Assembly: GCA_027345185.1 (NCBI GenBank)
Contig: DAHWIK010000018.1
Span: forward strand, 1 to 34,644
DNA: 34,644 nucleotides
Direction of reading: 5' to 3'
Source of the DNA: Microcaldota archaeon
GTDB lineage: Archaea > Micrarchaeota > Micrarchaeia > Micrarchaeales > CABMGC01
Shown: positions 20,632-29,985 of the stretch, piece by piece
Layout of the letters: each line of letters opens with the position of its first letter
How positions within the stretch are numbered: position 1 is the first letter of the stretch
The notes under the pieces: model-generated
The model's database searches: none
What the model saw: the letters and a program-made list of their open reading frames with translations, nothing else
What the model was told of the DNA's origin: nothing
Program-made: the position numbers and the translations under genes

Positions 20632-21315
20632 ATGATGCCATACTATCAACGCAGACCAAGACAGGAAGAGGACCACAGGGCCAACCTCGCCGAGTGGAAG
20701 CCTAAGACGAAGATAGGAATGATGGTCAAGAACGGGGAGATAACTACCATAGAGCAGATATTCGCATATGGAAAACCAATAAAGGAGGTTGAGATAATAG
20801 ACGCACTGCTCCCCACTCTTGAAGACAAGGTCATAGAGATAGCGTCTGTGCAGAGGATGACCAAGAACAACAGGAAGCAGAAGTATCGGGCAACTGTCAT
20901 AATGGGAGACAAGAACGGCCACATAGGCATAGGCGTAGGCAAGGACGTCGAGGTAAAACCGGCGATTCAGACAGGGATAAGGAACGCCAAGCAGCACATG
21001 ATATCGATAGGCCTGGGATGCGGATCATGGGAGTGCAACTGCGGAACCAGGCACAGCATACCGCTAATAACCAAGTCCAAGTGCGGAAGCGCCGAAATCA
21101 CGCTTAAACCTGCCCCAAGGGGGGTCGGCCTAGCAGCTAGCGCGACTGTGAGGTCTGTGCTAGAGCTTGCCGGAGTCAAGGACATGTGGACATTCTCCAC
21201 AGGAAGGACAAGGGACAAGTACAACATGGCACTCGCCACGTTCAACGCGCTAAAGAGCCTAGGGGAGCTGAAGAACCTAGACTCGCTCAAGGACGAAGTG
21301 CAATCAAGCCACTAA
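20632..21315 (+). CDS. rps5: Ribosomal protein uS5
   Basis: 227 residues; small-subunit protein involved in decoding accuracy. A double-stranded RNA-binding part, MTKNNRKQKYRATVIMGDKN with GHIGIGVGK, is followed by the archaeal Cys cluster GCGSWECNCGTRHSIPL and CGSAEITLKPAPRGVGLAAS. It is the last gene of this operon here. The expected uL30, uL15 and secY do not follow; an accessory island begins instead. Confidence 0.95.
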   Translation: MMPYYQRRPRQEEDHRANLAEWKPKTKIGMMVKNGEITTIEQIFAYGKPIKEVEIIDALLPTLEDKVIEIASVQRMTKNNRKQKYRATVIMGDKNGHIGIGVGKDVEVKPAIQTGIRNAKQHMISIGLGCGSWECNCGTRHSIPLITKSKCGSAEITLKPAPRGVGLAASATVRSVLELAGVKDMWTFSTGRTRDKYNMALATFNALKSLGELKNLDSLKDEVQSSH

Positions 21316-21396
21316 TTTTTTCGCGTGAATCTCCCTTCTCAGCCTAGCCAGCACATCCCTTCCCAAACCCACATCCTTTATTTACAGGCAAGATAT

Positions 21397-21480
21397 ACCC
21401 CAACCCCTTGGGGTGTGGATACTAAGATCGAAACTGCAACAGTCTTGCAGTACATCATACCCCACTGCTTGCAGTGGGGT
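21397..21480. other. Cluster of three stem-loops between uS5 and the ankyrin gene
   Basis: Three perfect short inverted repeats lie within 84 bases. The first is ACCCCAA-CCCC-TTGGGGT (21397-21414). The second is CTGCAA-CAGTC-TTGCAG (around 21434-21450). The third is ACCCCACTGC-TT-GCAGTGGGGT (21459-21480). They lie between two convergent transcripts, so they may stop or protect both RNAs; no U-tract follows. The third overlaps the last codons of the ankyrin gene. A mobile-element end or structured RNA is also possible. Confidence 0.45.
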
Positions 21481-22000
21481 GGTTGATTAACTCCGCGGTC
21501 TCATTCTGACCAGCTTCGTGAGCGCAGTCATACGCATTAACCCAATAACCATCCCTTGCATTGACGTCAGCTCCGTTCTCCACAAGGAACTTCACTATGT
21601 CAATATAGCCATAAATGGATGCCCGCGTCAGTGCTGTACCTCCACCATCACTTTGTGCGTTGATATCAGCCTTCTCATAAACGAGCAGCTTCACAACGTC
21701 CAGATGTCCGCTCATCGCAGCTCACATAAGTACAGTCCTGCTTATGTTGTCCCTTGCATCCACCGCCGCCCCATTCTCAATCAGGAAACGCGCAATCTCA
21801 ATGTGCTTATTCCATACTGACCATATAAGCGGACTGCGACCGCAAATTCGGACAGTGCTGATGTCTTTTTTCTCCATCAGGCGCCTAGCAAATTCAACCT
21901 GTCCGAAAAACGCGGCATATGTCAATATTGCCATGTCATGTTCAATACTCCTGTCCGAATGCTCTGAATAATCGGTCAATGTGTCATGAACTTCCTGCAT
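21455..22000 (-). pseudogene. Ankyrin-repeat gene interrupted by an in-frame TGA
   Basis: One continuous minus-strand frame of 181 codons plus stop, with a single TGA at 21724-21722. Before it: IWSVWNKHIEIARFLIENGA, VDARDNISRTVLM. After it, in the same frame: AAMSGHLDVVKLLVYEKADI, GYIDIVKFLVENGADVNARD. Reading through gives a run of about four ankyrin repeats. The TGA falls at the usual TALMxAA position, where Trp or Tyr is common, so a TGG-to-TGA change is the simplest history. The downstream part has its own ATG at 21715, so two shorter proteins are possible. It is the last gene of the minus-strand accessory cluster. Confidence 0.8.
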
Positions 22001-22019
22001 AAAATCACCCTACGCAACA

Positions 22020-22367
22020 TCAAGCCATCATTGCCGGTCTTCTTTTAGTAATGTTCCTCCTCAGCCTTGCAAGTGTATCCTCTCCAGCACCGACAACGGA
22101 ATTTATTTCAAACTGAGGAAGCATCTTCATTATCTCTGTGTGTCCTTTCTCCTTGGCCATGTCATAGGCGGTCTTTGCGCGTGCATCCTTCAGGAATGTA
22201 TCTGCTCCGTTGTCCAGCAGCAGCTTTGTAATCTCCTTCTCATCATCGCAAGCCGCATACATGAGCGCGGTAAAGCGCCAGGTGTCCCTCTCATTTGGAT
22301 CGTCTCCACGGGCAAGTGCCCTTCTCACCGTCTCCACATCTCCGTCTCTTGTTGCAGGTATAATCAT
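22020..22367 (-). CDS. Small ankyrin-repeat protein (115 aa)
   Basis: Ankyrin repeats fill most of the protein: AATRDGDVETVRRALARGDD-type first repeat (starting MIIPATRDGDVETV), TALMYAACDDEKEITKLLLD with NGADTFLKDA, and TAYDMAKEKGHTEIMKMLPQ. A basic C-terminal tail (LARLRRNITKRRPAMMA) follows. Ankyrin repeats mediate protein-protein contacts; no enzyme domain is attached. There is no signal peptide. It starts 26 bases after the peptidase gene and ends 19 bases before the next ankyrin gene, so they are probably co-transcribed. Confidence 0.85.
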   Translation of the reverse strand: MIIPATRDGDVETVRRALARGDDPNERDTWRFTALMYAACDDEKEITKLLLDNGADTFLKDARAKTAYDMAKEKGHTEIMKMLPQFEINSVVGAGEDTLARLRRNITKRRPAMMA

Positions 22368-22393
22368 GTCTTCGTATACGCAATCAAACCTCG

Positions 22394-23494
22394 TTATTCG
22401 CGCTCAAGTATCTTCGCAGACCTGAATGCGTCTTCTATCTGCTCGTTGTCAAGGGATAATATCTTATCTATGAATCCCGATTCCTTTGCTCTAACAGCGT
22501 CAGAATCCCTTACCATATCCATTGCTGCGAGCACAGAACCCACCTTGTACTTTGTAGCGTCTTTCTTGAAGAGGTTCGCAATATCATAGTTGTATTTCGC
22601 AAACTCGTCCATTGCCAAGACAATCCCTTTGTAGGCCTGGGAATAGTAATCATTAGGGGGCAGTTCAAGCCCATTCCCAAGGCTTATCTTCACTATTTCA
22701 AGGTCATCCCTTAGCGCTCCTACCTCGGCTTCATCTTCCTGGTTCACAAGAAGCATCTCCACGGCGTAGGCATGTGTCTCTCCTGCCGCCCCGTTCTGCA
22801 GGTGCACCATCTCGTGCGCTAGTATGGGAAAGACTGCCTTCCTCAGCGTTTCGACATCCTTGTCCTTCCTTCCTATTATGTCTTCTATCAATCCCATGCC
22901 CACTTCTATGCCAAGCGCATCATTATTGAAGTTGGATAGATGGAACTGTCTTACGGCAGCAAGGAAGTTTGTTCCAGATATCACCATGCCTTTCGGCACT
23001 ACCTTCCAGTTGTGGAATTCAAGGACGTCAATGTAAGAAAGAAGGAGAATCTCGTTCAATTTCCCAAGCAGCGCAGGATCACCATATAGCTTCTCGAACA
23101 CCCTGTTCGGAATCTTCTGGAACGTAGTATCTAGATCGTCATCCCTTATTGCCCCTATCTCCTCGAAAAAATCAGATTCCTTTCTGATTGTGTTTTCAGT
23201 CTCCCCGAAGATCCAGACAACATGCACCTCTCTTGGTCTTCCATTTGCGCGTATGCTATAAAGGCCTGCAAGGCTCCTGATATTCCTAACTGCGAGATCC
23301 AGCACCGTGCCCCTGTAGCTTCCGAAATGCTTGCGCATTCTTTCAGGATCCGTTATTTCGCGTATGGAATCAGACCTTAATGCAAGATCAAGCCCTGCCT
23401 CATCTGCCCTTCTCCTGAATACCTCCCTCACGTCGCCGTATCTCTTCTCCAACTGCCTCTGCTGCGCCGCGGTGAGATCTCTGAAGTCATGCAT
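22394..23494 (-). CDS. Putative HExxH zinc metallopeptidase, family not recognised
   Basis: 366 residues. The clear feature is FPILAHEMVHLQNGAAGETH (about residues 222-241), an HExxH site with a Glu seven residues further on, a plausible gluzincin-type third zinc ligand. The N-terminal ~95 residues are charged and helical (QQRQLEKRYGDVREVFRRRA); a middle region has VHVVWIFGETENTI and GIEVGMGLIEDI. No signal peptide or membrane segment is visible, so the protein is probably cytosolic or secreted by a non-Sec route. A degenerate paralogue lies directly upstream and two ankyrin genes directly downstream, all on one strand. Substrate unknown; the peptidase activity is inferred from the motif alone. 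Confidence 0.75.
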   Translation of the reverse strand: MHDFRDLTAAQQRQLEKRYGDVREVFRRRADEAGLDLALRSDSIREITDPERMRKHFGSYRGTVLDLAVRNIRSLAGLYSIRANGRPREVHVVWIFGETENTIRKESDFFEEIGAIRDDDLDTTFQKIPNRVFEKLYGDPALLGKLNEILLLSYIDVLEFHNWKVVPKGMVISGTNFLAAVRQFHLSNFNNDALGIEVGMGLIEDIIGRKDKDVETLRKAVFPILAHEMVHLQNGAAGETHAYAVEMLLVNQEDEAEVGALRDDLEIVKISLGNGLELPPNDYYSQAYKGIVLAMDEFAKYNYDIANLFKKDATKYKVGSVLAAMDMVRDSDAVRAKESGFIDKILSLDNEQIEDAFRSAKILERE

Positions 23495-23543
23495 AATCTT
23501 ATCTGACAGCCTAGCATCTTAAACCTTATCTGCGAAAATGCGC

Positions 23544-24399
23544 TCATCCATCTATTACATCGATATGCTCTACCATCATGTGCACGTCACCATTGAGCAG
23601 CTCGTCAAATGAATCCTGACCTCTTTGCCTCTTCCACGTCCGAGTCTCAGATAAGCTTCATGAAGTCCCTGGTCGCCCTTAGCTTGTTTGGCGACCTGTC
23701 CTTCTCAAACAGCCTGCGTATGGCATCATTGGTCTTTGCGAATTGGTTAGCGGCAAGTACCAGCCCAATATATCTCTGGATCTCGTATGCGTTCACATGG
23801 CGCAGCGCGTCGCGGTCAGGCAGATGCTTCTCCAGCCTTATCCATCCATCAACATCATTCCTAAGCAGTTCAAGGTATGCGTTTGTTGACGGATCGAAGA
23901 GAAGGCTTATCGCGAAATTGCTCACCTCGTAGTTATCCATCCTGTGGAACTGTGTAAGCTCATGCGCGAACAGCGAGGTAAACATAGTCTCAAGCTTACG
24001 GTAATCCTTAGGATCCATATATAGGGGTACCTCGTACAGTATGTTCTTGCCTATGTCTATACCCAATGCGTCATTGCCGAAGGTCTGCGCATCGCGCAGT
24101 GCAGTGTACATCGCATTGCCAGCTCCGGTTATCACCAATCCATCAGGAACAAGCCTCCAGTCACAGAACTCAAGAGCCTTTGCGTATGTTCCAAGCAGGA
24201 ACTCTTCCATCCTCGGTACGACATCAGGATTCCTGTAAATCCTTTCAAGTACCTTGCTGTTCAGCCTGCAGAAAGCGAACCTGTCCTGGTAGGTCTCCCT
24301 GTACAGCCTGTCGAATCTCTTAGGCTCCTTGAATGCGGAGATGTATCTGTACCTGTTCTTCGTGAACTCACTTATGTCCTCAAACATCCATATTACATG
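23544..24399 (-). pseudogene. Decaying paralogue of the HExxH protein, active site HELTQ
   Basis: The main open part (24387-23647, 246 codons) parallels the downstream 366-residue protein: ALEFCDWRLVPDGLVITGAG against its VLEFHNWKVVPKGMVISGTN, and FGNDALGIDIG against NNDALGIEVG. The zinc site reads FAHELTQFHR, so the second His is Gln; the later Glu is kept. Homology continues past the TGA at 23649 for 13 codons (DSDVEEAKRSGFI against RDSDAVRAKESGFID), then after a frameshift (DELLNGDVHM) to 23544. Upstream it continues five codons before the ATG (HVIWMF against HVVWIF) and stops exactly at an insertion-sequence end at 24400. The N-terminal ~95 codons are missing. A shorter, inactive protein may still be made. 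Confidence 0.75.
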
Positions 24400-24606
24400 T
24401 GCTGTGTTGCATAATTATTTAGAGTGAGTTGGATCCAGCATGGTCGCTTTGACCCCGACCTTTTTAATGTACGAATTACTTGTACTGCATACTTTCTTTC
24501 TACAATCAAAACTGTTTTCGTTTTCCTCACGTGAGGTATCTCTGGCAAAAGACCTAAACGTTCGTATTGATATTCTCCATTGTTACTTTTATCTTTAAAT
24601 CCAAAT
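24400..24606 (-). mobile_element. Left-end fragment of a diverged insertion sequence
   Basis: The fragment begins with TGCTGTGTTGCATAA (24400-24414), identical to the terminal repeat of the neighbouring element. It then encodes, on the minus strand ending at TAA 24415, the C-terminal ~62 residues of a relative of the 87-residue accessory protein: FKDKSNNGEYQYERLGLLPE and VLIVERKYAVQVIRTLKKVG. The protein similarity is clear but far from identity, so this is a different family member. Its accessory gene is cut within a Phe codon exactly where the full element starts. Confidence 0.75.
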
Positions 24607-24621
24607 TGCTGTGTTGCATAA
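24607..24621 (+). repeat. Left terminal inverted repeat of the insertion sequence
   Basis: TGCTGTGTTGCATAA. An identical copy lies at 24400-24414 in direct orientation and the inverted partner at 25918-25932. Confidence 0.8.
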
Positions 24622-24885
24622 TTATTGGCTTCCAGACATATCCAGAACGCTTGGTTTGATTTTTAACTTCTTCAATACCTTTACCACTTCTGGTACATAC
24701 GCCTTTTCAACCATTATCGCACTCTTGATTTGAAGTGCGTTAGGAATTTTTGAAATTAGACCCTCACGGACATATTTGTATTTTCCGAAGTTACTTTTAT
24801 CCTCATACCCAAACAACGCACGAATAATGCTTGTTTTTTGGACTGGAGATTTGTCAGCCAGATTGTACGTGATAATTGCCTTCAT
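24622..24885 (-). CDS. Insertion-sequence accessory protein, 87 aa, family not recognised
   Basis: The protein begins MKAIITYNLADKSPVQKTSI and has FGYEDKSNFGKYKYVREGLI and VVKVLKKLKIKPSVLDMSGS. It is basic, with alternating beta and alpha character (a small ferredoxin-like fold is possible), and has no Cys. The gene lies wholly inside the element, its stop codon touching the left terminal repeat. It has a good TATA box 27 bases upstream and is divergent from the transposase across a palindrome. A diverged copy in the neighbouring fragment keeps the same reading frame and key residues, so the protein is a real, conserved part of this element family. A regulatory or DNA-binding role is a guess. 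Confidence 0.7.
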   Translation of the reverse strand: MKAIITYNLADKSPVQKTSIIRALFGYEDKSNFGKYKYVREGLISKIPNALQIKSAIMVEKAYVPEVVKVLKKLKIKPSVLDMSGSQ

Positions 24886-24958: not shown

Positions 24959-25887
24959 ATGAAATCTAAAAAGCCTGGAAAACGTTGGGCAAGAAATTCG
25001 TTGACAAACGTGATTTTCGCGTTTACAACGCACAACTGGTAAAACAGGGAGAATACCTTCTCTCCTGCGATTTTGTAGAGGTGTGGAACAATGAACTTGC
25101 ATTGATGAATGCAGGCAAGCCAGGAGCGCCATACTTATTTCCCAACAGCCTCATCAAACTGCAGTCAATATAGCATGCCAAACGCATTCCCTACCGCATG
25201 ATCGAAGGCATGACGCGAGACCTTAGCAAAATCGGGCAACTGCCAGAATACAACGACTATTCTACGGTAAATCGCCGGGTCAACAGACTCGCTTTTATCC
25301 TGGAGCCTCCTAAAGGCAACGATATCACCGTATTCAGTGACGGAACAAGTATGCAGGTAGTATCTGGCGGAGAGTATATGCGTGAGAAGTATGGCAAGAA
25401 GAACAGGCGTTGGGTGCAAATAGTTATTCTTGGCGACGCCAAGACATACGAACCGGTCAGTTACGAAGTGCACATCATTCAAGAAGCAAAGAGTACGGAA
25501 CGGCAGCTCACTAAACTTTTAGACGGCAGAGTACCAGTGGTCGCAGCCTGAGGAGACGGTGCGATGGACTCTAAACTGTTATACGACTTTTGTGAACAAC
25601 GTGGAATTGCATCGGTCTTCAAACCAGACATTAATGCGCATACTGATACGGATTCGGCACGTCGTAATAAAGTTGTAACGGAACGCAATCGACTTGGTTA
25701 CAAAGGTTGGGCGAAAAAGAATAGGTATGGCTTTCGATGGCCCGCTACAGAATGGATATTCAGCGCTATGAAGCGGATGTTTGGCGAACAACTTGCCGCG
25801 ACAAGCGAATGGGGCATGTTGCAGGAGACATCGTGTAAACTATGGATATACCAACGACTCAAACGTCACGGAGAATCAAAATCGTGA
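24959..25887 (+). pseudogene. DDE transposase pseudogene (IS5/IS4-like)
   Basis: Starts at ATG 24959 (MKSKKPGKRW), shifts frame near 24985 (continuing GKKFVDKRDFRVYNAQLVKQ), meets an in-frame TAG at 25171 (LIKLQSI*HAKRIPYRMIEG) and an in-frame TGA at 25549 (VPVVAA*GDGAMDSK). All three catalytic acids can be seen: Asp in ITVFSDGTSM, Asp in GDGAMDSK and Glu in WPATEWIFSAMKRMFGEQL. The parts add up to a full-length transposase of about 310 codons. With one frameshift and two stops it cannot make an intact enzyme. Confidence 0.85.
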
Positions 25888-26220: not shown

Positions 26221-26327
26221 AAGACAGTCTTATGATTTCGTTATTAGACCTGTCTGTATTCGACTTGTGATTATTTGTCAACTTCCTATTGAATCTTCCA
26301 TAGCAACATTTTTAAGATGTTACCGCA

Positions 26328-26336
26328 TTTATATAG
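26328..26336 (+). promoter_or_regulatory. TATA box for the secretion-type ATPase gene
   Basis: TTTATATAG is centred 24 bases before ATG 26356. It lies inside the longer frame beginning at 26317, so 26356 is the better start. Confidence 0.55.
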
Positions 26337-26355
26337 TGAAATAATAGGTCATCCA

Positions 26356-27669
26356 ATGCCTGAGGACAAGTTTCCATCGTTTGAAATGAAGGTCTTCGAG
26401 AAGCTCGAAGGCAGGCTTGGCAACATCCACAACGATCAGGAGCTCTACAAGTACATAGAAAGCGTGGTAAAGTCACTTGATCCTTCAGCTGACAAGCCCA
26501 GGATAGACAAGATAGTTGCGGAGGCAAAGTCGTTCGAGCCTGTGGAGAAGTACCTGAATACTGATAATGTAGAAGACATAATGGTGAACAACACCAAGAA
26601 CATCTTCGTGTATGAAAGCGGCAGCGGAGACCAGATGGTTCCGGAGCGGATCTCCACGGCAGAAGAGCTCGACTGGTTCGTTAAGAAGCTGAAGATGTAT
26701 GCGACCAGCGCAGTGGCAAACAGACACATCTTCGACGTCCATCTCCCTAACGGCTCAAGATGCAACCTGATTGATTCGCCCCTAGGCCCAGACATAACAA
26801 TAAGGAACTTCAAGCCTAATGCGTTCAGCATAATCGACCTGATAAATTACGGAGAGCTCAGCGCGCAACTTGCTGCAAGGTTCTGGCTTTATTCTGAAGG
26901 GCTGGGAGTAAGACCTGCAAACATGCTCATAGGCGGGATGCCTGGCAGCGGGAAGTCAACGCTCCTGAATGCGATGTTCAGCTTCTTCAGGCCCGAAGCG
27001 AGGATAGTCGTGCTGGAGGAGACCTACGAGCTCAACACATCTACCCAGGAGAACTGTGTGAGGCTTGAGACAAGCCCTGAAGTGACACTGGAGGACCTGC
27101 TTAAGAACTCCCTGAGGATGAGGCCTGACCTGATAATAGTCGGAGAGGTCAGGGGCAGGGAAGCTACCGACATGATGACGGCAATGAGCATAGGCAAAGC
27201 GGTGATGAGCACAATGCACGCACATACAACAAGAGACATGGTGACCAGGCTTGAGCACGACCCTATGAGGATAAGCAGGGAGACCATACCGCTCATAGAC
27301 GCATTCACAGTGGTTTCGCAGGTGAACAAGGACCACAAGAAGCTTAGGCGGGTTACTCAGGTGTCAGAATCATCGGGAATGGAGACCCAAGTTCTGATGT
27401 CAGATCTTTACACGTATGACTACAAGACGCACCAAGGATCAGACATACTGCCTAGCGTCACATACAGGGACGTGCTCTCAAAGGCTACCGGAAGGACACC
27501 AACAGAGATAATACAGGAGGAGAATAGGAGGGCGAAGGCTCTGGAGAAGCTTAACGAGATGGGTATACGGGAGCTGCACACAATAAACGAGTTCTGCAGG
27601 GACTACTATGACAACCAGAAGAAGTCGATGCAGAAGCTCGGACTGGAGAGCCTCGGGACATTCGACTGA
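26356..27669 (+). CDS. Type II/IV secretion system ATPase (TadA/VirB11/CpaF-like)
   Basis: About 437 residues. The N-terminal domain includes EDIMVNNTKNIFVYESGSG. The RecA-like ATPase has Walker A IGGMPGSGKSTLLNAM, an Asp box (VVLEETYEL), Walker B DLIIVGEVRGREATD and a His box MSTMHAHTTRDM. The C-terminal ~60 residues are helical and charged. Archaeal homologues drive assembly of type IV pili, archaella or related surface filaments. No membrane partner (TadC/ArlJ-like) or pilin gene is beside it, so the machine it serves is probably encoded elsewhere. The TATA position supports the start at MPEDKFPSF. Confidence 0.9.
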   Translation: MPEDKFPSFEMKVFEKLEGRLGNIHNDQELYKYIESVVKSLDPSADKPRIDKIVAEAKSFEPVEKYLNTDNVEDIMVNNTKNIFVYESGSGDQMVPERISTAEELDWFVKKLKMYATSAVANRHIFDVHLPNGSRCNLIDSPLGPDITIRNFKPNAFSIIDLINYGELSAQLAARFWLYSEGLGVRPANMLIGGMPGSGKSTLLNAMFSFFRPEARIVVLEETYELNTSTQENCVRLETSPEVTLEDLLKNSLRMRPDLIIVGEVRGREATDMMTAMSIGKAVMSTMHAHTTRDMVTRLEHDPMRISRETIPLIDAFTVVSQVNKDHKKLRRVTQVSESSGMETQVLMSDLYTYDYKTHQGSDILPSVTYRDVLSKATGRTPTEIIQEENRRAKALEKLNEMGIRELHTINEFCRDYYDNQKKSMQKLGLESLGTFD

Positions 27670-28406: not shown

Positions 28407-29849
28407 TTATTTTTCAGGCAACTTGTCATAGCTCTCTATCGTTGCATTGTGTGTAAGCCTTATAAATCTCGCATTCTTCCTGAGCTCTGCAAGAGTAGAT
28501 GCACCGCAATAGCTCATTCCAGACCTTACTCCACCCATCAGCTGATATACTATCTCCTTCATGCTTCCCTTGTATGGAACAGACGATTCAACGCCCTCCG
28601 GGACTATGTCAAAGGCCTCCTGTGGGTCTATGACAACGTTGTCTATCATCTTCCTGCTTATGTTTGCGCCGAAAGAGGACATCCCGCGGTATGCCTTATA
28701 CTTTGCTCCATTGCGCCTTACGAAAAATCCCGGACTCTCGTCAGTACCGGCAAAGAGGCTGCCACTCATTATTGCAGCTGCACCTGCTGCAAGTGCCTTT
28801 GTTATGTCTCCTGACTCTTTCATTCCACCGTCAGCTATTATGCTCACTCCGGACCTCTTTGCGGCTTCTGAGCATTCCATAACTGCTGTAAGCTGCGGCA
28901 TTCCTGCACCTGTGACCCTTCTGGTAGTGCACGCTGCACCGGGGCCTATGCCTATTTTTATTGAGTCTGCGCCTGTGGAAGCAAGGTCCTCCACGCCTTT
29001 TGCAGTGGCAACGTTTCCTGCCATCAAAGGCGTGTCCGGGAGCTCCTTCTTCACCTGCTTTATCGCAGAGATAACGCTGTCTGCGTGTCCATGCGCTATG
29101 TCAAGTACTATAATGTCGGCTCCAGCTTGAGAGAGCAATTGCGCTCTCTGTATGAAGTCTCCCTTTGTGCCTATTGCAGCCCCTACAAGTAGCCTGCCCT
29201 TTCTGTCCTGTGCTGACTTTTCGGACATCATCCTCCTGTAGAGGTCCTTAGACGTTATTAGCCCGCGCACGACGTTGTCCTTGCCGACCAGGGGCAGCTT
29301 CTCTAGTTTGTGCCTGTCAACGATCTCTATCGCATCCTCCATGCTTATTCCAGGCTTGCCCACTATTAATTTTGACCTAGGGGTCATAGCCTTTGACACC
29401 GGATCCTTGTCATCCTTATAGAATCTTATGTCCCTATCGGATAGTATCCCAAGAAGCCTGTTTGAATCGTCCACTACCAGGAGACCGCTTACTGAGCTGT
29501 GTGACATCAAATTCCTTGCGTCTCCTATAGTTACATTCTTTGTTATCCTGTATGGATCCTCTATCACGTAGGCCTCTGACCTCTTCACCCGCTCAACCTC
29601 CGCCACCTGGCTCTCTATTGTCATGAACCTGTGTATTATGCCTATCCCTCCCTCCCTAGCTATTGCAATTGCCATTGCGGATTCTGTTACGGTGTCCATG
29701 TTTGCAGACATGAGTGGAACTTTGAGCCGTATCCCTTTTGTTACACTTGTGCTGGTGTCTACAGCCTTCCTAGATTCAACTCCAGAACGCCTAGGAACAA
29801 GAAGCACGTCGTTGTAGCTGAGCCCAACTTTAATGTCGTCAATCTTCAT
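28407..29849 (-). CDS. guaB: Inosine-5'-monophosphate dehydrogenase
   Basis: About 480 residues from ATG 29849 (MKIDDIKVGLSYNDVLLVPR). It oxidises IMP to XMP with NAD+, the committed step to GMP. The TIM-barrel start is followed by an inserted CBS pair (about 90-205). The catalytic Cys loop reads GPGAACTTRRVTGAGMPQ, then IIADGGMKESGDITKALAAG, the flap near KAYRGMSSFGA and the C-terminal QLMGGVRSGMSYCGASTLAE. A longer frame runs to 29945 but precedes the TATA box at about 29887-29895, so the shorter start is right. A GGGGT sequence precedes the ATG. Monocistronic. Confidence 0.93.
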   Translation of the reverse strand: MKIDDIKVGLSYNDVLLVPRRSGVESRKAVDTSTSVTKGIRLKVPLMSANMDTVTESAMAIAIAREGGIGIIHRFMTIESQVAEVERVKRSEAYVIEDPYRITKNVTIGDARNLMSHSSVSGLLVVDDSNRLLGILSDRDIRFYKDDKDPVSKAMTPRSKLIVGKPGISMEDAIEIVDRHKLEKLPLVGKDNVVRGLITSKDLYRRMMSEKSAQDRKGRLLVGAAIGTKGDFIQRAQLLSQAGADIIVLDIAHGHADSVISAIKQVKKELPDTPLMAGNVATAKGVEDLASTGADSIKIGIGPGAACTTRRVTGAGMPQLTAVMECSEAAKRSGVSIIADGGMKESGDITKALAAGAAAIMSGSLFAGTDESPGFFVRRNGAKYKAYRGMSSFGANISRKMIDNVVIDPQEAFDIVPEGVESSVPYKGSMKEIVYQLMGGVRSGMSYCGASTLAELRKNARFIRLTHNATIESYDKLPEK

Positions 29850-29886
29850 GAAGACCCCAAAAGCATTTCCTATTTGCAACCAATTA

Positions 29887-29895
29887 TTATAAATA
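29887..29895 (-). promoter_or_regulatory. TATA box for guaB
   Basis: TATTTATAA (minus strand) lies about 42 bases before ATG 29849, predicting a short leader of about 16 bases that holds a GGGGT ribosome-binding-like sequence. Confidence 0.5.
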
Positions 29896-29985
29896 CGGTT
29901 GCAGAGGCAGCAATGCCAGCATACATTTTCAATAACAGAAGCCAATTAAATATAGTCTTGCAGGCAAATATTGCATCATAATCAG

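Follow-up and report, generated by a model that had tools for sequence, protein, structure and literature searches.

A probable variable junction beside rpsE in a Micrarchaeota genome, with one intact zincin-like gene, a decayed relative and ankyrin genes of a separate family

Introduction

The described systems closest to the features treated here are the gluzincin-type zincins, the ankyrin-repeat proteins (PF12796) and the miniature elements derived from IS200/IS605 (MITEs). Ankyrin-repeat proteins are often expanded in host-associated microbes. Micrarchaeota have been described in co-culture with Thermoplasmata, with archaeal hosts reported (PMC7414124), and a further report likewise describes them as living with archaeal hosts (PMC5498576). 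In the literature library searched, nothing was found on ankyrin proteins in Micrarchaeota. We analysed an islet at the end of a ribosomal protein operon in which genes of an HExxH-bearing family and ankyrin-repeat genes lie side by side.

Results

The islet and its borders

The window is the whole stretch of DNA that was analysed, 34,644 nucleotides from a 923-kb draft assembly (49 contigs, 83% complete) labelled G000 in the comparisons. Four frames follow one another on its minus strand: M2 (24387..23647, 246 aa, HELTQ), M1 (23494..22394, 366 aa, HEMVH), AnkA (22367..22020, 115 aa) and a second ankyrin frame, AnkB (22000..21455). The spacers among the M1, AnkA and AnkB frames are 26 and 19 bases, all on one strand. 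An earlier note on this DNA, made from the sequence alone, had listed these frames and gaps, the HEMVH with a Glu seven residues on and the HELTQ, all of which are present; the accessory islet that it placed where the ribosomal operon ends was borne out as well, the left border being rpsE, which Pfam identified. The features of the junction are as follows.

20632..21315, plus strand: rpsE (uS5; Pfam Ribosomal_S5), the gene with which the ribosomal protein operon ends; fixed left border of the junction
21310..22000, minus strand: AnkB, ankyrin pseudogene, with an in-frame TGA and a repeat element ahead of the C-terminal tail
21382..21487, minus strand: palindrome-bearing repeat of about 106 bp, IS200/IS605-like MITE, inside AnkB
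22020..22367, minus strand: AnkA, 115-aa ankyrin-repeat protein with a conserved C-terminal tail, GEDTLARLRRNITKRRPAMMA (Pfam Ank_2, E 6e-12)
22394..23494, minus strand: M1, HEMVH protein of 366 aa, sole intact M-family member of its own genome; probable zinc metallopeptidase
23550..24405, minus strand: M2, HExxH-family pseudogene (HELTQ) as read by tblastn with the intact G005 protein
24453..24885, minus strand: an ORF of 87 aa (24885..24622) with a second, diverged copy next to it (24611..24453); TTATGCAACACAG repeats on the flanks
25198..25887, plus strand: what may be remnants of a DDE transposase, in the interval from M2 to GspE
26317..27669, plus strand: secretion-type ATPase (the name GspE was given by eye), right border of the junction; orthologues syntenic with IMPDH (28407-29945) in relatives

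A rare HExxH family of Micrarchaeota

M1 and M2 are paralogous proteins that share 32% identity (E 1.3e-29); no other member of their family, here called M, was found in their own genome. Relatives at E <= 0.01 occurred in four of the 98 genomes first searched, the genome of the window included, all of one genus. A profile search of 301 genomes of the phylum added one more clear member, from another genus of the same family (G223, E 1e-104); the relatives of M1 are thereby those of G002, G005, G011 and G223. Only three M loci, all titled Candidatus Micrarchaeota, were returned by a pattern scan of an 84,980-species collection, and searches of phage, plasmid and viral collections returned no relatives. 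Weak matches to the M profile in G169, G170, G185, G172 and G201 were rejected as unrelated proteins without HExxH, and the weak match in G008 is a 38-aa frame. The family is rare and unclassified, and was found only in Micrarchaeota, in five genomes.

No significant match to M was obtained in Pfam, NCBIfam, PADLOC, PHROGs or the PDB sequences, and no profile score exceeded the curated Pfam/NCBIfam peptidase cut-offs, the nearest weak zincin matches being Zincin_1 (PF06262, 0.15) and Peptidase_M48 (PF01435, 0.17). In an AF2 model of M1 (pLDDT 80, pTM 0.83) the HExxH lies on helix 214-233, and the next helix, 238-249, bears Glu239. When this model was searched against PDB and viral folds, nothing matched at E <= 0.001 (best PDB E 1.8), and YbeY-type and archaeal zinc-peptidase entries appeared only among the insignificant matches. 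A second model, built for the G005 protein, came out too poor for a structure search (pLDDT 57). Profile and structure searches with the 366-residue protein, which the earlier note had proposed, thus identified no known housekeeping peptidase, and the family remains unrecognised, as that note had it, both by sequence family and by significant fold match.

The His, Glu and His of the motif are invariant in all five intact members, the pseudogene M2 alone departing from them. At the twelfth position after the first His stands a Glu in M1, G223, G011 and G005 and an Asp in G002, an acidic residue that may serve as the third zinc ligand. Other invariant residues lie in the N-terminal region and in an N-D-x-L-G motif. 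Differences within the family are concentrated at third codon positions, with dN/dS about 0.13-0.16 where dS was computable, and the family is under purifying selection. Because the N-terminus of M1, judged by eye, has no obvious signal sequence, a cytosolic location would be expected. We infer zinc binding and peptidase activity, and M1 is likely a cytosolic zinc peptidase with an HExxHx7E site; with no significant match to a solved peptidase, this assignment rests on a short motif and its helix placement.

A decayed paralogue

The protein encoded beside rpsE in G005 is intact and full length (369 aa, HELTH). In a tblastn search of the window its residues 84-349 aligned with M2 in frame -1 at 63% identity, and the alignment went on in frame -2 with residues 350-368. 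M2 is missing the 83 N-terminal codons, carries a TGA at 23649-23647 and a +1 frameshift near 23607, and has lost the second His of the motif, the predicted catalytic or zinc-ligand residue (HELTQ versus HELTH in G005). The only counterpart of residues 1-83 of the G005 protein anywhere in the window is in M1, with none next to M2. The point of truncation coincides with a small repeated ORF bordered by TTATGCAACACAG, and possible transposase remnants lie beyond it. Since the differences between M2 and G005 are mostly silent (dN 0.30, dS 2.3), the decay is recent.

Judged by these lesions, M2 is a pseudogene of the HExxH family, and its HELTQ is better read as decay than as the mark of a designed pseudoenzyme. 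The two tandem paralogues of the earlier note are homologous, but they are not both intact, one being a truncated and frameshifted remnant; its pairing of an active-looking with a degenerate copy is not supported as a design, M2 having decayed recently from a gene of which a relative keeps one intact copy.

Ankyrin genes, repeat elements and probable mobile DNA

Ankyrin repeats above the Pfam cut-off were found in AnkA (E 6e-12) and in the pieces of AnkB (E 2e-10 and 1e-17). An in-frame TGA at 21724-21722, read LM*AAMSGHLDVV, splits the AnkB frame into two ORFs of 92 and 86 aa; ankyrin repeats often have a Trp at this position. The true 3' end of AnkB lies beyond the repeat element, past which its tail, GRDVLARLRREIHAKKLVA, and the stop after it can be read; the tail remnant (21313-21381) was matched by the tail profile described below before it was used as a seed (E 0.006). 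Of the two ankyrin genes claimed earlier, both have the repeats and AnkA is intact, but AnkB is a pseudogene, interrupted by the stop and by the mobile element. A simple recoding of TGA was considered and rejected, because TGA is an ordinary stop here (11 of 18 genes of the window that were checked) and the two in-frame TGAs stand at unlike positions, an expected Trp in AnkB and an Arg in M2. Across the genus, ankyrin matches range from none (G003, G004, G011) to 28 matching stretches (G005).

The element of about 106 bp inside AnkB recurs elsewhere in the genome amid unrelated flanks, three times near full length (95-96%) and once truncated (100%). GC-rich palindromes lie close to each end of the element, with no evident target duplication. 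The 87-aa ORF in the 24453-24885 region, of no recognised family, is patchy in relatives (6 of 60 genomes), and the pair at 24453..24885 is probably mobile. The TTATGCAACACAG motif of its flanks also borders a copy of the palindromic element at another locus (L087). Further along, 25198-25551 matches DDE_Tnp_1 at E 0.016, below the Pfam cut-off, and the ORF at 25564-25887 has no match.

The junction in relatives

rpsE was found in all 12 genomes of the genus. In G000, G002, G005 and G011, that is, in all four genus genomes with M, an M gene or islet adjoins it in the opposite orientation, tail-to-tail. In G001, G004, G006 and G007 the secretion-type ATPase gene follows rpsE directly; G008 has an S9 peptidase gene and another gene after rpsE, and in G011 an AbiEii gene lies within the rpsE-ATPase interval. 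The M tree joins M2 with G005 and then with G011 (100% support each), and M1 groups with G223. A species tree of 12 ribosomal proteins, rooted at the midpoint and with some weak nodes (48-79), places G006 and G007 beside G000; M would therefore have been lost there if it was inherited. The position beside rpsE in four genomes, together with a branch of M2, G005 and G011 that matches the species order, suggests vertical inheritance.

Ankyrin genes adjoin M in two of the five M loci (G000 and G002), co-directionally in one and divergently in the other; the G002 gene bears the tail and lies 66 bp from M. G011 has M and no ankyrin matches, the M gene of G223 has no ankyrin neighbours, and the G005 contig ends 1 kb beyond M, a stretch with no convincing ankyrin match. 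Judged from gene counts and not by a formal test, two adjacent cases of five exceed random placement. In G223 the M gene sits within an accessory region (L074 5066-11600) that also carries DUF4143-type ATPases and an AbiEi/AbiEii pair. Among PADLOC defence profiles, no M protein had a match, and AnkA matched only ankyrin-containing models.

A C-terminal tail on unrelated proteins

The tail of AnkA (22020-22080) has an approximate consensus of LxRGxxALxRL[RK]RxI and is found at the C-terminus of 13 ankyrin proteins, AnkA included, which seeded a profile; AnkA, as one of these seeds, scored E 1.1e-12. This profile found further cases in the same genomes, again at the C-terminus: the AnkB remnant, another ankyrin frame (G000:C32), and proteins without ankyrin repeats in G002 (C13, C23) and G000 (C20). 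A second profile, seeded in part with finds of the first, added G000:C15. In three Micrarchaeota genomes, then, ankyrin proteins share the tail with members of at least two unrelated families (loci L112, L117, L118, L156, L041, L044, L058 and others). The G000:C15 protein has homologues in 27 of the 78 genomes of the Micrarchaeota family concerned; those in other genomes mostly align only up to about residue 118, and their C-termini, where read, differ. Because one core carries different ends and one end sits on different cores, the tail looks like a portable C-terminal tag. The proteins of this G000:C15 group (G000:C15:2451-2855 at L157, G000:C17, G003:C69 at L159 and others) have a G[KR]W[FW]W-like motif and match nothing in Pfam; in some of the 27 genomes the group is multicopy, with 10 matches in G003, and its C-terminal ends vary.

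Convincing cases of the tail come only from G000, G002 and G005, each an M-bearing genome. With relatedness ignored, such an overlap has a chance of 1.3e-4 when 79 genomes are counted and of 0.018 when the genus alone is; relatedness of the genomes probably explains part of it. A strict tie of M to the tail did not hold, since two other genomes with M, G011 and G223, lack the tail. If the tail were a sorting, secretion or turnover tag on accessory proteins of some Micrarchaeota and the M peptidase part of the same machinery, for example in processing tagged proteins, this would explain why M is present in all three tail-bearing genomes and adjoins a tail-bearing ankyrin gene in two; we regard this idea as speculative and very unlikely.

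Discussion

The reading we favour, at a probability of about 0.72, is that the islet is a variable accessory junction holding one intact zincin-like gene, M1, a decayed relative, M2, and ankyrin genes of a separate family. The history would have begun with a resident M-family copy (M2) at rpsE, with orthologues beside rpsE in G005 and G011. A copy of a second lineage (M1), its nearest relative in another genus, would then have joined it, presumably by transfer, after which M2 would have decayed through truncation, loss of the zinc-ligand His, a stop and a frameshift. M1 would most likely be a cytosolic zinc metallopeptidase. The ankyrin genes would belong to a separate family that is expanded genome-wide and whose members have the portable C-terminal tail in common; AnkA is intact, and AnkB is disrupted by the in-frame TGA and the mobile element.

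The arrangement had earlier been taken to suggest an interaction, effector or defence-like module, which would consist of an active protease, a pseudoprotease regulator and ankyrin adaptors working as an effector or defence system. The close co-directional spacing of the M and ankyrin frames speaks for such a module, as do the tail-bearing ankyrin gene that also adjoins M in G002, at 66 bp, and the presence of M in three of three tail-bearing genomes. Two of its supposed parts, M2 and AnkB, are pseudogenes, however, and gene order is not conserved. Neither G011 nor G223 has an ankyrin gene beside M, and in G011 ankyrin matches are absent altogether. The proposed check for conserved linkage in related genomes, once run, showed none between M and ankyrin genes, adjacency being limited to two of five loci that differ in order and orientation, and the defence-like role found no defence-family match for M in PADLOC. 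We therefore consider a module highly improbable. It could be objected that the stops and the frameshift are assembly or sequencing errors and that all genes are intact, the assembly being a draft of 49 contigs at 83% completeness. In draft assemblies single-base lesions could indeed be errors, but truncation and repeat insertion are not single-base changes: M2 also lacks 83 codons and the catalytic His, the N-terminal piece was not found elsewhere in the window, and AnkB holds a repeat element of which the genome has copies elsewhere. Intact genes throughout are hardly credible.

M might instead be an enzyme of defence or toxin-type cargo that enters variable junctions, in which case its neighbours would differ because the junction is a hotspot. 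Its patchy distribution fits this, as do the AbiEi/AbiEii and DUF4143 ATPase genes near M in G223 and the AbiEii gene in the rpsE-ATPase interval of G011. Against it stand the same rpsE-side position in four genomes and the M2/G005/G011 branch that follows the species order, suggesting vertical inheritance, as well as the lack of a PADLOC match and absence from the phage, plasmid and viral collections searched, and we think cargo unlikely. Somewhat less doubtful, but still unlikely, is that M resembles zincins in motif and yet is no protease, having a structural or regulatory role or a different hydrolase activity. The fold search with M1 gave no significant match, and the invariant residues include the N-terminal region and the N-D-x-L-G motif; all three HExxH residues are nevertheless kept in all five intact members, with one lost in the pseudogene.

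With the variable junction as the preferred reading, gene decay replaces the story of protease, pseudoprotease and adaptor, and a small unclassified HExxH family of Micrarchaeota is defined. A tail common to ankyrin and other accessory proteins of Micrarchaeota was a surprising by-product; were it a targeting signal, it would offer a handle on how such cells deal with their accessory proteins.

Set beside known systems, M1 resembles gluzincin-type zincins in having its HExxH on a long helix and a conserved acidic residue at +12 on the next helix of the model, whereas the M family differs from zincins in its lack of a significant profile or fold match, its long unique N-terminal region and its restriction to Micrarchaeota. 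The element at 21382-21487 is short, multicopy and palindromic at its ends like IS200/IS605-derived MITEs, but it is known here from its copies alone. AnkA and AnkB, although they share a tail that is also carried by non-ankyrin proteins and are not conservedly linked to M, agree with ankyrin-repeat proteins (PF12796) in their canonical repeats and in belonging to a family that is expanded in some genomes of the genus.
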